This document shows positions 4,795 through 43,232 of a DNA stretch of 43,232 nucleotides, piece after piece. The notes beneath the pieces are model-generated. The model had not been told where the DNA came from. It saw nothing but the letters and a program-made list of their open reading frames with translations, and made no database searches. The position numbers were made by a program, and so were the translations under genes. Source of the stretch: an uncultured Clostridia bacterium (GTDB lineage Bacteria; Bacillota; Clostridia; Oscillospirales; Ruminococcaceae); contig CANPYZ010000021.1 of the NCBI GenBank assembly GCA_947589035.1, positions 1 through 43,232 of the forward strand, in the 5' to 3' direction. Positions within the stretch are counted from its first letter, which is position 1. The number at the start of each line of letters is the position of its first letter.

Positions 4795-7287
4795 ATGACG
4801 CAATATTTAATTACCGGAATGAGCTGCGCTGCGTGCAGCTCCCGTGTAGAGAAAGCCGTTTCCAAAGTCGCCGGAGTGACTTCTTGTTCGGTTAGTTTAC
4901 TGACTAATTCTATGGGTGTAGAAGGCACTGCTTCCGCACAGGATATTATTAACGCTGTCCGGAATGCCGGTTACGGGGCTTCTTTAAAACATGCCGAAAA
5001 AAAACAAACATTTTCCGAAGAAGAAAACGCCCTGAAAGACACAGAAACACCACTCCTGAAAAAACGCCTGATTGCTTCTATCATTTTTCTGATTCCGTTA
5101 ATGTATCTTTCTATGGGTCACACCATGTGGAACTGGAAACTTCCGGCTTTTTTCGCTGGAAATCCTCTGGCAATTGGTTTACTTCAACTTCTGCTGACAA
5201 TCATCATTATGATCATTAACCAGAAATTTTTCATCAGCGGAATAAAAAGCCTTCTGCACCGTTCCCCGAATATGGATACGCTTGTTTCCTTAGGTTCGGC
5301 TGCCGCTTTCGGATACAGCACTTTTGCTTTATTTGCCATGACCGGAGCGGAAAATAAAGAAATGGCTATGCATTACATGCATGAATTTTATTTCGAATCT
5401 GCCGCAATGATTTTAATGTTAATCACTGTCGGGAAAATGTTAGAAGCCCGTTCGAAAGGGAAAACTACTGACGCTTTGAAAAGTTTAATGCAGCTCACGC
5501 CGGAAACGGCTACTTTATTCCGAAATCAGCAGGAAATTATTGTTCCCGTGGAAGAAGTTCAGCAAGGAGAAATTTTTCTCGTTCGCCCTGGAGAACAAAT
5601 TCCCGTTGACGGAACAATTCTTGAAGGAAACAGTGCTGTTAATGAATCTGCCCTTACTGGCGAAAGTCTCCCCGTAGATAAAACAATTGGCGATGTTGTT
5701 TCCGCCGGAACAATTAACCAGTCCGGTTTTCTCCGGTGTCAGGCGACCAGAACAGGACAAAATACAACGCTTTCCCAAATTATTCAGCTTGTCAGCGATG
5801 CTGCCGCTTCTAAAGCTCCTATTGCTAAAATTGCTGATAAAGTTTCCGGAATTTTCGTTCCGGTAGTCATTGGCATTGCGTTACTCACAATAATGATTTG
5901 GTTAATTTCCGGTCAGTCTGTTGGTTTCGCTTTAGCAAGGGGAATTTCCGTTTTAGTCATTAGTTGCCCATGTGCTTTAGGATTAGCCACGCCTGTTGCC
6001 GTCATGGTCGGAAATGGTGTCGGCGCAAAAAACGGCATTTTATTCAAAACTGCCGCTTCCCTCGAATTAACCGGAAAAGCGCAAATTGTTGCTTTAGACA
6101 AAACCGGAACCATTACACAAGGTCAACCGCAAATCACAGAAATTCTTCCGGCAGAATCGTTTTCCGAAAATCAACTTCTTCAACTCGCTTACGCTTTAGA
6201 ACAGAAAAGCGAACACCCTTTAGCGAAAGCAATTACCCGTCAGGCAGAAGCGCAGAATCTTCCGTTAATGCCCGTGTCTGATTTTCAGGCTTTATCCGGA
6301 AACGGTTTATGTGCAGTTTTAGAAAATCAACCCATTTACGGCGGAAATTTACAATATATTCAGTCAAAAATTTCCATTCCGGAAAATTTCTGTGAACAAG
6401 CCGAAATGCTTTCTTCTCAAGGAAAAACGCCATTATTTTTCGTTCACGGGGAAAAATTCTGCGGAATGATTGCCGTAGCAGATGTCATTAAACCCGACAG
6501 CCCGACAGCCATTCAGGAACTTCAGAAAATGAACATTCATGTTGTCATGCTTACCGGAGACAACCCGAAAACCGCTGAGGCAATCGGAAAACAAGCCGGT
6601 GTGAATGAAGTCATTGCCGGCGTTCTTCCTGACCAAAAAGAAGCCGTAATCCGGAATTTACAGCAAAAAGGAAAAGTCATTATGGTTGGTGACGGAATCA
6701 ATGATGCGCCTGCATTAACTCGTGCAAATACTGGCATAGCCATTGGCGCAGGAACGGACATTGCCATTGATGCAGCAGATGTTGTATTAATGAAAAGTAA
6801 ACTTTCTGATGTTCCGGCAGCTATTCGGCTAAGCCGTGCAACGCTGAATATTATTCATCAGAATTTATTCTGGGCATTTATTTATAATTTTATTGGTATT
6901 CCGTTGGCAGCAGGGGTATTTATTCCCGTTTTCGGGTGGCAGCTGAATCCCATGTTCGGCGCAGCGGCAATGAGTTTATCAAGTTTTTGTGTGGTGACGA
7001 ATGCGTTACGATTGAATTTTTTCCGTATGCACGGCACCACTCAACATAAAACAATGACCAGAAAGGAGAAAACCACAATGCAGAAAACATTAAACATTGA
7101 AGGCATGATGTGCGCCCATTGTGAAGCAAGAGTGAAAAAAACACTTGAAGCCATTCCAGGCGTAACTCAGGCGGAAGTCAGTCACACTTCCGGAACGGCA
7201 GTTGTCACACTGGAAACAGATGTTGACAATCAGACATTGAAACAGGCTGTTGAAGCGCAAGATTATTCCGTAACAAACATTTCCTAA
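4795..7287 (+). CDS. copA: Copper-exporting P1B-type ATPase CopA with fused C-terminal CopZ-like domain
   Basis: The protein has 830 residues and pumps Cu(I) out across the cytoplasmic membrane. It starts with a heavy-metal-associated domain (GMSCAAC, residues 8-14). Eight predicted helices carry the P1B core: a TGES loop, the CPC ion site (391-393), phosphorylation site DKTGT (D435), SEHPLA and GDGINDAP (D633). The ATPase ends near residue 745 and the frame runs on through a charged linker into a second HMA domain (762-830, GMMCAHC at 770-776). That domain looks like a complete CopZ chaperone. AGAAAGGAGAAAACCACA lies just before its Met762 codon (7078), a strong internal ribosome binding site. 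A free CopZ could therefore also be made. It forms an operon with csoR. Confidence 0.95.
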
Positions 7288-8083: not shown

Positions 8084-8499
8084 TTATTCACTCCCTGAAT
8101 CATTATTTTTTTCTTTGTATTTATCAACATACTGATAAATCATAGACATCAATTCCGTTTGATCTCTGAACGGCAATTCTGAAAGCAGCTGAATCAATTC
8201 ATGACAAAGTTCTGTGGTTTTTTCCGGCAATCCAAAATTCACCTGATTATGTTCAAAATGGCTTTGATGATTATTATATACTTGCAAAACATTTTTTGCG
8301 GTAACATTTTTGCTGCTATCGGCAACACTTTCCGAATTTTCTGTTCTTCCTAACAGATAATCTACTGAACAATTAAGATAATCAGCTATTTTGATTATAT
8401 TGACTGAAGTCATTCCTCTTGTGTCAGAAATTTGCCTGACAGCATTCACGCCTAAAGAAAGTTCTGTAAGCATTTGGTTAACAGATATACCGTTATTGA

Positions 8500-8764
8500 A
8501 AACTTATAAAAAGCTATAAAATAAACTTTTATGTTCCATTCCTTGTTCAATGTGTCCGCTTTTGAAATTGCAAGCAATTCCTACTCACGTTTGGGATAAC
8601 ACTCCGAAGGCGTAAATTCCCGACTAACGTATCGGTACACATCTGCATTTCCTTGAATATGGAATGATGCAGATTTTACGCTTAAGATTTTACATACAAT
8701 ACGATTCGATTGTAAAACCGCATATCTTAACTTGTCAAGTTGCATGGTACTTGGTTTTCGTACC
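8500..8764 (-). ncRNA. Candidate structured RNA inside the small element
   Basis: Transcription is expected from about 8764 leftwards. Stems seen in the RNA sense: GGTAC/GTACC near the 5' end; a 13-pair stem made of 8725-8730 with 8682-8687 plus 8711-8717 with 8688-8694; a stem of 8667-8674 with 8641-8648 extended by GGAA/TTCC; a UUCG-capped hairpin at about 8593-8621 closed by GGGA/UCCC; and GGAAUUGC/GCAAUUUC at 8564-8581. The density of exact pairings in 200 bases argues for a folded RNA rather than a protein. The 3' end is undefined, as no good terminator is seen. I do not recognise the RNA family. Confidence 0.5.
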
Positions 8765-8770
8765 AATTTT

Positions 8771-8799
8771 ATCCTACCACAAAACTCCTTCTTTGTCAA
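8771..8799 (-). promoter_or_regulatory. Promoter inside the small element
   Basis: On the minus strand TTGACA (complement of 8794-8799), a 17-base spacer and TAGGAT (complement of 8771-8776). It would launch the hairpin-rich RNA from about 8764. Confidence 0.6.
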
Positions 8800-8811
8800 G
8801 TGGTTTTTAGA

Positions 8812-8913
8812 TTTTTATTGAGTTGTATATTTTTATCAATTTAAACGTTTAAATTGATAAAAGTCAATACTTTATGATAACATTTTATCAAAATGTTTTA
8901 ACTGTTAAATCCC
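8812..8913 (-). repeat. Conserved left end of the small element, copy 1
   Basis: These 102 bases are the part shared with the window edge (43131-43232). The only difference is at 43190, where copy 2 has T and copy 1 has A on the same strand. The copy 1 version keeps the 32-base palindrome (8831-8862, centre AAAC|GTTT) perfect. Confidence 0.95.
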
Positions 8914-8984
8914 TTGTTCTTTACATAATAATTTAATTCTATCTTTTGTCATCTGTGAATCATACATAAAGCCACCTCGTTACC

Positions 8985-11190: not shown

Positions 11191-11273
11191 GGAATTATGT
11201 ATAATAGAGAGTCGTGTTTTCCATTGGCGGCTGCGCTGTCAAGTACACTGATTTTCAGAGGAGGAAATTTTTA

Positions 11274-13574
11274 ATGATGAAAAACAAAAAAAGTCTGAAA
11301 GCTCGTCTTACTGCTGGTTTGATGAGTGCGGCAATGCTCACTTCCGCAAGTGTTCCGGCAATGATGAGTATGCCGGTTAATGCTGCGGACGGCAATGACT
11401 ATTACGAAGCATTAGCGTTATCATTATATTTTTTTGATGCGAACGCCTGCGGAGATGATGTTGATGCCGGACCTCTTACATGGAGAGGTGACTGCCACAC
11501 ATATGACGAATATCCAGGTGGCTATCATGATGCCGGTGACCACATCAAATTCAATTTAACCATGGGTTTTGCGGGTTCAAGTTTGGCAATGGCTGAATAT
11601 TTAAACCCTGGTGTGTTTGAAAAAGCCGGCTGTAAAGACCATCTCGTTGCGATTTTAAAGCGCAATGCAGATTATTTGATGTCTACAACAACAATGAACG
11701 GTGATAGCGTGGAACAAATTGCTCATGTTGTTGCAGATGGCAACATGGACCACAGTTATTGGACAAGTCCGGAAGAACAGACTTACTCCCGTACAACGTA
11801 TTATTTAACTGCCGGAAATAATAACTCCGCAGTCTGCGGAGAAATGGCTGCCGCTTTAGCCGGAACGGCTTACGTGGTGAAAGATTCTGACCCTGCCTAT
11901 GCAGAACAATGCCTGAAATATGCGAAAGCTTTAGTTGCTTTCGGAAAAGACCACGTTGGAAATAATACAGAAGGTCTCAATGGCTTCTATGGCACAGATC
12001 CTCAATATCAGGACGAAATTGCTTTAGCGGAAGCATGGCTTTACATTTGCGGAGCTGGCGACAAGCCGACACTTGTTCCGGAAGGCGGCGGAAAATATAG
12101 CGATAACGTTGGCTATGATGGCTACAGATACTGCTGGGATAAAGTTTTCCAAGGGTACGCTGCTTTAATGTATAAAGCTACTGGCGATAGCATGTGGGCA
12201 ACTGAACTCGAAACGGAAATTCAGAAACAAGGCGGTCTGAGCGTTGGTAATTATAACGGCGATGGCTGGGGTGCTTCCCGTTACAACTGCGCATTACAAA
12301 TGAGCGGTTACGCTGTTGCTAATGGTGATGCGAATAACCAATATGCAAAAGCCGGAAAATGGCAAATGGATTACCTTCTCGGCGACAATCCGACAGGCTA
12401 TAGTTTCCTGATTGGTTACGGCGATAAATACCCGACACACATTCATCACCGTGCCGCTAACCCCGGTGACGGAAATCAGACTTCCGTTGACAATCCGGAA
12501 GCAAAATATACCCTTTACGGCGCATTAGTCGGCGGTATTGACGGCGGCGGAAGTTATGAAGACCATGCTGACCGTTATCAATACACAGAACCGGCATTAG
12601 ATTACAACGGCTGCTTTGTGTTAGCTTGTGCGGCTTTAGCGGATTTGTACGGCGGTACAGATGCAGGAGCAGCGAATATTATTTCTAATGCGTCTGAAAT
12701 TACTTATCCGTTCTCATTCGGGAATGGTTCTTCTGTTACGCCCACACCTCCGCCAACAGAACCCACCAGCGAAACAACCACAGCAACAGAGCCTGTTTCT
12801 TCTGAAGAAACCACTGCCCCCACTGAACCAACGACTCAGCCGAATGACCCTGTAGAAACCACTACACAACAGCAGCAACAGCAACAGCCTTCCGGCGGTG
12901 AAAAAGAAGCAACCTTAACAGAAAAACAAGGCGAAGGCAACAGTACTTACTGGACTGTTGACACAACAGGTGCTTCCAAATTAACCATTACTTGCAAAAC
13001 TAATTCCGCTGATACAGCAGCAAACGGTGCATTCAATCCTCCTGGCGGCTGGACGCCGGAGAACTGGGAACTGACGAATATCAGCGGCGGAACATTTACT
13101 GTTACTTATGACGTTCCCGCCGGACAGAACAGCGTTGACTTCTATCTCTGGTGGCCTACAGAAGCAACAATTGAAAAAGCTGTCCTCACCATGAATGGCG
13201 GCGGTGAACAACAACCGTCAACTTCTGCGACTACTGCTGAACAAACCCCAACAACCACAACCACAACAACAACTGTTCAGGATAATCCTCAGCCCACTCA
13301 GCCAACGAACCCCACTCAGCCCACTGAACCGACGAATCCTTCCGGAGGAGACCTCCAGCCAACAAAACCCGGTGATGCTGACTTAGATAATGAAGTAAAT
13401 ATTTTAGATGTTATTTTTGTGAACAGAGCGATTTTAGGAAAATCTTCTCTGACTGAACAAGGACTTGTCAACATCGACTTCAATCACAACAAAATACCTG
13501 AACCTGATGAAGCATTGACGATTATGAAACGTATTGTGAACATTCTCACTGATGACGATTTAAGAAATGCTTAA
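11274..13574 (+). CDS. Cellulosomal GH9 endoglucanase with accessory module and dockerin
   Basis: The protein has 766 residues from ATG 11274, chosen because GGAGG lies nine bases upstream; the frame is open from 11214 without a ribosome site. A signal peptide ends near VNA-AD (about residue 38). The GH9 domain (about 40-475) has GGYHDAGDH with D86/D89, IHHRAANPGDG and YTEPALDYNG with the acid Glu at about 439, matching the GH9 signature. It should cleave beta-1,4-glucan with inversion. A Pro-Thr/Gln linker leads to a beta-rich module (about 542-640, with WTPENWEL and FYLWWPTE), probably carbohydrate-binding but of no class I can name. A second linker and a dockerin (about 700-760, starting GDADLDNEVNILDV) follow. 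The enzyme should join a cohesin scaffold. Confidence 0.95.
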   Translation: MMKNKKSLKARLTAGLMSAAMLTSASVPAMMSMPVNAADGNDYYEALALSLYFFDANACGDDVDAGPLTWRGDCHTYDEYPGGYHDAGDHIKFNLTMGFAGSSLAMAEYLNPGVFEKAGCKDHLVAILKRNADYLMSTTTMNGDSVEQIAHVVADGNMDHSYWTSPEEQTYSRTTYYLTAGNNNSAVCGEMAAALAGTAYVVKDSDPAYAEQCLKYAKALVAFGKDHVGNNTEGLNGFYGTDPQYQDEIALAEAWLYICGAGDKPTLVPEGGGKYSDNVGYDGYRYCWDKVFQGYAALMYKATGDSMWATELETEIQKQGGLSVGNYNGDGWGASRYNCALQMSGYAVANGDANNQYAKAGKWQMDYLLGDNPTGYSFLIGYGDKYPTHIHHRAANPGDGNQTSVDNPEAKYTLYGALVGGIDGGGSYEDHADRYQYTEPALDYNGCFVLACAALADLYGGTDAGAANIISNASEITYPFSFGNGSSVTPTPPPTEPTSETTTATEPVSSEETTAPTEPTTQPNDPVETTTQQQQQQQPSGGEKEATLTEKQGEGNSTYWTVDTTGASKLTITCKTNSADTAANGAFNPPGGWTPENWELTNISGGTFTVTYDVPAGQNSVDFYLWWPTEATIEKAVLTMNGGGEQQPSTSATTAEQTPTTTTTTTTVQDNPQPTQPTNPTQPTEPTNPSGGDLQPTKPGDADLDNEVNILDVIFVNRAILGKSSLTEQGLVNIDFNHNKIPEPDEALTIMKRIVNILTDDDLRNA

Positions 13575-43130: not shown

Positions 43131-43232
43131 GGGATTTAACAGTTAAAACATTTTGATAAAATGTTATCATAAAGTATTGACTTTTATCATTTTAAACGTT
43201 TAAATTGATAAAAATATACAACTCAATAAAAA
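43131..43232 (+). mobile_element. Left end of the small insertion element, copy 2 (cut by the window edge)
   Basis: These last 102 bases match the complement of 8812-8913 with one difference (43190). The shared part starts at GGGATTTAACAG, the same base as in copy 1, where it marks the left end of the insert in the regulator gene. Features repeated here are the eight-base-arm hairpin (43147-43165) and the palindrome (43182-43213), which has one mismatch in this copy. The rest of the element, including its promoter and RNA, would lie beyond the window on the plus strand. Confidence 0.85.

Follow-up and report, generated by a model that had tools for sequence, protein, structure and literature searches.

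Miniature elements derived from prokaryotic insertion sequences (MITEs) are short and non-coding, occur in several near-identical copies and carry the ends of a larger family. Insertion sequences of the IS607 family, as described in the available part of PMC6188088, insert in all cases at a GG dinucleotide without duplicating it, which fits an exchange over two identical base pairs, and have no terminal inverted repeats. RAGATH-18 forms the scaffold of the guide RNAs of IS607 TnpB, and the available part of PMC11061315 reports this motif with IS607 TnpB only. The same part of that source gives the TAM as AGGAG in 18 of 22 strains and as GAGGG in 4 of 22, and states that single TAM changes in ISFba1 abolish cutting entirely.

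The window analysed here is a stretch of 43,232 nt from an assembly of 2.4 Mb in 72 contigs. On its minus strand an XRE-like gene starts at 8967 and reads up to ...AAAGAACAAGG (8912), where a 420-bp unit (8492-8911, minus strand) interrupts it at a GG; the gene picks up again after the insert with GGTATATCTG (from 8491). The 5′ part (8912-8967) and the 3′ part (8084-8491) of the gene were delimited on the minus strand by a junction test and a homologue search. Two of the six junctions tried were open, 8913 and 8910. With one GG kept, the former gives a protein of 153 aa reading ...CKEQGISVNQM... across the join, and the latter is open too but places one extra residue in the protein. The 0.42-kb segment of the original prediction is present, and the halves of the regulator do join in frame at a single GG. 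Once that GG is assigned to the gene, the unit that remains measures 420 bp, with its left end at 8911, its right end at 8492 and GG on both flanks (8912-8913 and 8490-8491); these borders are based on the copies described below and on the single-GG join. Moreover, all nine aligned homologues from other genomes, a selection from the genus-wide matches to the XRE-like protein, cross the junction region without an insert. Matches at E ≤ 0.001 were found in 32 of 38 genomes of the genus, the element's own genome included, many of them weak and to other regulators. Pfam sees a sub-threshold Cro/C1 helix-turn-helix alone (17.5 bits against 22), and therefore the label 'XRE family' seems fair but weak. 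The gene has most likely been knocked out by the element. Elsewhere in the window we noted by eye an ORF resembling a copper-type P-type ATPase (4795-7287, plus strand) and another resembling a dockerin-bearing glycoside hydrolase (11214-13574, plus strand).

A GG target without target-site duplication fits the XRE site, where the frame closes on one GG. In genome G171, a related RAGATH-18 element interrupts a 378-aa ORF that is restored if one GG is kept and is not restored if both are; the downstream part of this ORF matches Pfam Aldo_ket_red (aldo/keto reductase). The insertion had been predicted to be clean, without target duplication and with about two bases to spare, and this is explained by the single-GG join, since IS607 exchange takes place at GG and leaves no duplication. 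The element had also been called palindrome-ended. This was mistaken, as the palindrome (8831-8862) is internal and is absent from the five tnpB-bearing left-end halves inspected, and IS607 elements are described in the available text of PMC6188088 as lacking terminal inverted repeats. The longest listed ORF inside the element (72 aa, 8581-8799, minus strand) has no Pfam match at E ≤ 0.01; coding potential was rejected on this ground, which agrees with the view that the insert codes for no plausible protein. The sense orientation of the element within the gene, together with the restoration of the frame on its removal, would also be expected of an IStron-like element that is spliced from the XRE mRNA. 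However, no intron family was among the 10 matches obtained at E ≤ 10. Moreover, within 160 nt of another copy no ORF exceeds 90 aa, and one lies directly against an ORF of opposite orientation. Splicing was rejected on the intron search and on the ORF context of these other copies, and we consider it scarcely credible.

Five full-length copies were found in the assembly at 97-100% identity, one of which covers 421 of 423 bases, together with many partial copies (40 of 102 candidates were scored). At the edge of the window (43131-43232, plus strand) a further copy is represented by its left end, the rest being lost where the contig stops; its flank reads CCGGAGG|GATTTAAC. Its identity of 99% is far above chance, and the defined ends, one of them recurring at the window edge, are thus upheld. 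The left end of the element itself (66 nt, 8848-8913, minus strand) is 94-97% identical to five left ends of tnpB-bearing elements in the same genome. In these five left-end halves the main-family element is without tnpA, the 66-nt left end being followed by tnpB within about 100 nt. The TnpB of the same-end relatives matches Pfam PF12323, PF01385 and PF07282 (OrfB and zinc-finger domains), with left-end and right-end halves on different contigs. No contig inspected spans left end, tnpB and right end of the main family, and therefore the link between MITE and tnpB elements rests on half elements at contig ends. The element in the window has neither tnpA nor tnpB, so that its description as transposase-less stands. 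An intact tnpA, the serine transposase gene expected of an autonomous IS607 relative, was not found in the genome search, the assembly being broken at repeats; the three matches were all below the cut-off and include a C-terminal remnant directly 5′ of tnpB (47.7 bits against 110) and a match of 24 bits within a 265-aa recombinase-like ORF. At the end of contig C54 (L055), a C-terminal tnpA remnant stands before the start of a main-family tnpB. This remnant suggests that the tnpB-only elements descended from tnpA-tnpB elements.

Several copies (five full and others partial) thus share the same ends and contain no transposase gene, and on sequence grounds the element is an IS607-derived MITE. 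It can therefore be named, whereas the original prediction had no name for it. The checks proposed with that prediction largely succeeded: they brought up further copies bounded by the same two ends, tnpB-bearing relatives beside these ends and gene homologues that lack the insert, whereas no sister strain was found to have this very gene as an empty site.

The 152 nt leading to the right end (8491-8642, minus strand) are a guide-RNA (reRNA) scaffold, with 82-94% identity to the sequence that precedes the right end in tnpB copies of the main family. Within it, the RAGATH-18 motif (RF03064; 8539-8610, minus strand) is matched by Rfam at 67.2 bits against a gathering score of 44.9, which bears out the earlier impression of an RNA-rich insert. 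The scaffold is laid out as 32 nt, RAGATH-18 (72 nt) and 48 nt, in total about 150 nt leading up to the right end. A hairpin loop 5′ of RAGATH-18 (CGTTA, 8625-8629, minus strand) supplies the 5′ partner of the pseudoknot PK2 described in the available part of PMC11061315, and the complementary TAACG at the right end (8491-8495, minus strand) its 3′ partner.

RAGATH-18 is matched 33 times in the genome, 32 of them above the gathering score, and we examined 31 of the 33 copies. Thirteen stand after the C-terminal part of a main-family tnpB, five after tnpBs of other families and one (L131) after a degenerate tnpB tail. Five are full MITEs and two are other short forms (L103 and C4), whilst four are cut by contig ends and one (L132) has no tnpB or left end in reach. 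The pair CGTTA/TAACG is present in 25 of these 31 copies, including all six MITE copies examined. It is replaced by CGCTAC/GTAGCG in L127 and L130 and, by eye, in the G171 MITE; in L122, L128, L129 and L132, which belong to other subfamilies, a loop-to-end pair of at least five was not found. The scaffold scores 66.7-73.6 bits in the six MITE copies, which overlaps with the 68.8-74.3 bits of the 13 main-family tnpB copies. The element carries a seemingly complete TnpB guide RNA.

Upstream of the scaffold, a putative sigma-70-like promoter (TTGACA-17-TAGGAT, 8771-8799, minus strand), recognised by its match to the consensus, reads into the guide RNA; 10 promoter-like sites were observed in a 560-base region against 2.3 expected. 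It is followed by a leader hairpin TGGTAC...GTACCA (8745-8765, minus strand), identified by eye and similar in the IS607-type and CRISPR-type units of G171 described below, and by a 65-nt module with two helices, the inner one covarying, which we call M (8676-8740, minus strand). Of this the earlier reading had missed two things, namely that the RNA belongs to the guide RNAs of TnpB and that the middle third of the element contains a module common to other guide-RNA systems.

We propose that 8492-8911 is very probably a non-autonomous IS607-family MITE that carries a free-standing guide-RNA gene, is moved by TnpA and loads TnpB in trans. At the level of sequence, the proposal draws on the insertion at GG, on both ends being shared with local tnpB elements, on the reRNA scaffold with its pseudoknot and on the presence of promoter and M instead of tnpA and tnpB. 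An IS607 TnpA acting in trans would cut and rejoin the element at GG. A transcript would start near 8764, cover M and the scaffold and continue into the gene that flanks the element. TnpB from other copies would bind this RNA and take about 20 nt of flank as the guide, predicted to be 8471-8490 (minus strand) in the XRE gene beside the right end from the guide placement and length given in the available part of PMC11061315. The guide would then point at the insertion site without the element, as has been proposed for TnpB transposons.

The context of the insertion bears on this last step. The TAM-equivalent at the XRE site is ACAAG, not AGGAG or GAGGG, which counts against TnpB-guided retention at this site because the empty site would need a TAM. 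The mismatch does not remove the element from the IS607 family, as the TAM belongs to the target of the nuclease and not to insertion by TnpA. NGGAG is found at two of eight MITE left ends against four of five tnpB left ends (Fisher p = 0.10), a count that leaves out C30 (class unclear) and the short forms in L024 and L033 and takes the C2 copy, despite an irregular left end, as a match. At tnpB-type right ends, a class set by right-end letters that takes in short and undecided forms, an ATG lies 4-12 nt downstream in 14 of 23 cases, compared with 578 of 3766 GG sites (p = 8e-7). The same spacing occurs at 5 of 26 GGAGG sites in the window and at 2 of 7 MITE right ends. The tnpB-type copies stand just 5′ of start codons, beyond what the GGAGG motif gives in the window. 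The contrast between MITE and tnpB copies in start-codon context is not significant (p = 0.20), and the differences in TAM (p = 0.10) and start-codon context are suggestive only. We also note that the tnpB-type IS607 positions look as if inserted between a Shine-Dalgarno site and the start codon.

The element might instead be a plain dead MITE, its guide RNA a fossil that persists only because TnpA requires the right end and the RNA overlaps with it. Scaffold and right end do physically overlap, no intact tnpA was found and NGGAG is absent from six of eight MITE left ends. However, the scaffold scores as high as in the tnpB copies, PK2 is kept in every MITE copy examined, and a promoter and M stand upstream and recur with other guide scaffolds. 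We consider this explanation unlikely, if respectable.

M came to light as the middle of the MITE matched other genomes independently of the rest. A covariance model of M matched 2 of the 247 genomes of the family under strict filters. The exact M pattern was found in 27 contig stretches of a collection of 84,980 species, all titled Ruminococcus or Oscillospiraceae, and in no stretch of viral_contigs; phage and plasmid records (five and one, respectively) matched the right-end/guide part alone, at 72.9-77.0%. The idea of M as a viral feature was rejected on these two results. Rfam gave no family at gathering score over M, the best overlap being a snoRNA model at 16.3 bits against 75. We collected 35 copies of M, 30 from the species collection and five from the element's own genome, and all 33 that are not cut off stand 5′ of one of four guide scaffolds. 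With scaffold classes assigned by patterns made for the present analysis, these are t1 in 9 of the 35, t2 in 8, a type I-C-like CRISPR repeat in 9 and RAGATH-18 in 7; the remaining two are cut off. A further copy outside the pattern set (G171:C19, 63 bits) adjoins an I-C repeat. A truncated promoter-M copy was seen before a long ORF in the element's own genome (C29:11351-11419, within L030 of G000, 11351-11495); no guide scaffold was seen there, and this copy, also outside the pattern set, is the sole exception.

By their position, t1 and t2 are omega-RNAs of TnpB. Within the genus, 28 loci with t1 or t2 came up, of which eight have M. Six loci (five places, four t1 and one t2) follow a tnpB-like ORF and are without M, Pfam supporting three of the ORFs, and 14 have neither M nor a tnpB-like ORF, five of these being cut by contig ends. 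M marks many, but not all, protein-less copies. M also accompanies omega-RNAs of other TnpB families, in elements that end in hairpins; this, and the TnpB relatives of the element itself, would agree with a MITE derived from IS200/IS605, as the original prediction had guessed. That guess came close, but the family is IS607: the target is GG, RAGATH-18 is reported only with IS607 TnpB in the available part of PMC11061315, and inspection by eye shows none of the hairpin ends that t1/t2 elements have. Membership of IS200/IS605 was rejected on the scaffold and the target, and we regard it as very improbable.

A sigma-70-like promoter precedes M, by pattern match, in 27 of the 31 copies with enough upstream sequence. 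The inner helix of M has 24 cells changed on both sides against 9.7 ± 2.1 in shuffles, and slid versions score lower; the pairs with both-side changes number three, not above shuffles, and the changes track scaffold classes. Covariation thus lends the helix moderate support. Candidate contributions of M are a processing site, a site for protein binding, or a 5′ end that is defined or stable. By eye, the region just 5′ of the scaffold in the window MITE resembles that of the G171 element, and owing to this likeness a cassette may have been swapped between IS607 subfamilies.

In G171, nine promoter-M-repeat units lie at loci L179-L184 (contigs C20, C6, C67, C24, C43 and C42), of which one has two type I-C-like repeats and the other eight have one each. 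An array of 22 repeats is present on C40 as well. The M model has no match before this array, and M as the leader of the main G171 CRISPR array was not supported. Some units lie within phage-like genes (portal, terminase, DNA methyltransferase and transposition protein, by PHROGs). Where portal genes are intact, about 300-360 nt separate the two flanks, which means that part of the gene is missing. The I-C PAM is TTC. The triplet before the 'spacer' was read by eye in uninterrupted alleles for eight of nine repeat-side junctions, none being found for L182. TTC was present in the single allele of what we take to be a hydF-like gene (1/1), in 5/5 alleles at L181 site 1336, in 2/3 at site 943, in 6/15 at L184 (5 TTT) and in 1/3 at the XRE junction, and was lacking at the portal (0/12), L180_7023 (0/2) and L179_6749 (0/1). 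At three of the eight compared junctions, the repeat abuts the protospacer and the intact allele carries TTC.

These units admit a tentative and rather doubtful generalisation, in which M would be a 5′ RNA module that is portable and makes mobile, free-standing guide genes out of scaffolds belonging to unrelated RNA-guided nucleases (IS607 TnpB, two other TnpB families and type I-C Cascade), the CRISPR version of G171 being perhaps a homing cassette. Here the host CRISPR effector would cut the empty allele and the cassette would be copied in, as is thought for TnpB and its transposon. The reading is weakened by two further junctions without TTC. A different role would be that of a decoy: the MITE RNA would occupy TnpB with guides that have no valid TAM, shielding the genome or the MITE as RNA anti-CRISPRs do against Cascade. 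This would agree with the putative promoter of the element and with the TAM mismatch at most MITE left ends; moreover, a solitary CRISPR repeat inhibits type I-F CRISPR-Cas according to the available part of PMC10651486, and M also stands 5′ of solitary I-C-like repeats. The presence of a PAM in the intact allele at three of eight CRISPR-type junctions, by which some guides look usable, speaks against a decoy, and we think such a role distinctly unlikely. We retain the reading of the window element as a MITE with a guide-RNA gene of its own.

In summary, the usual picture of TnpB transposons has the guide next to the nuclease gene, and here the guide travels alone with its own putative promoter. 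As the same scaffold follows tnpB in 13 or more places of the genome, the element lends itself as a natural experiment on whether guides work in trans, and on what keeps them, be it retention, inhibition or mere hitch-hiking. If confirmed, M would represent a new RNA family common to transposon guide RNAs and CRISPR repeats, and its sequence could be used to track down orphan guides belonging to several RNA-guided nucleases. MITEs, guides of the RAGATH-18 type and IStrons without an ORF are all established kinds. The literature searched, which comprised titles and abstract openings and lay largely outside subscription journals, yielded no guide-only IS607 MITE that brings a promoter of its own.

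The element fits the description of prokaryotic MITEs, but keeps a whole guide-RNA scaffold and a putative promoter. With IS607 elements as described in the available part of PMC6188088 it shares the GG target without duplication. With those that carry a RAGATH-18 reRNA, such as ISFba1, it shares the reRNA motif and PK2, the layout being 32+72+48 nt here and 37+73+64 nt in the available part of PMC11061315. Unlike ISFba1-type elements, it has no tnpA or tnpB, possesses its own putative promoter and M, and has a mismatched TAM at its site. Group B IStrons without an ORF, for example forms of BcISt1, are likewise IS607-type, ORF-less and inserted at GG in the available part of PMC4227781, but the window element contains no group I intron (no intron family at E ≤ 10). 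Lastly, the solitary repeat units or RNA anti-CRISPRs of PMC10651486, in the part available, consist like the M units of G171 of a promoter and a lone guide scaffold without protein, whereas the window element is a transposon, its ends defined and its scaffold of the TnpB type.
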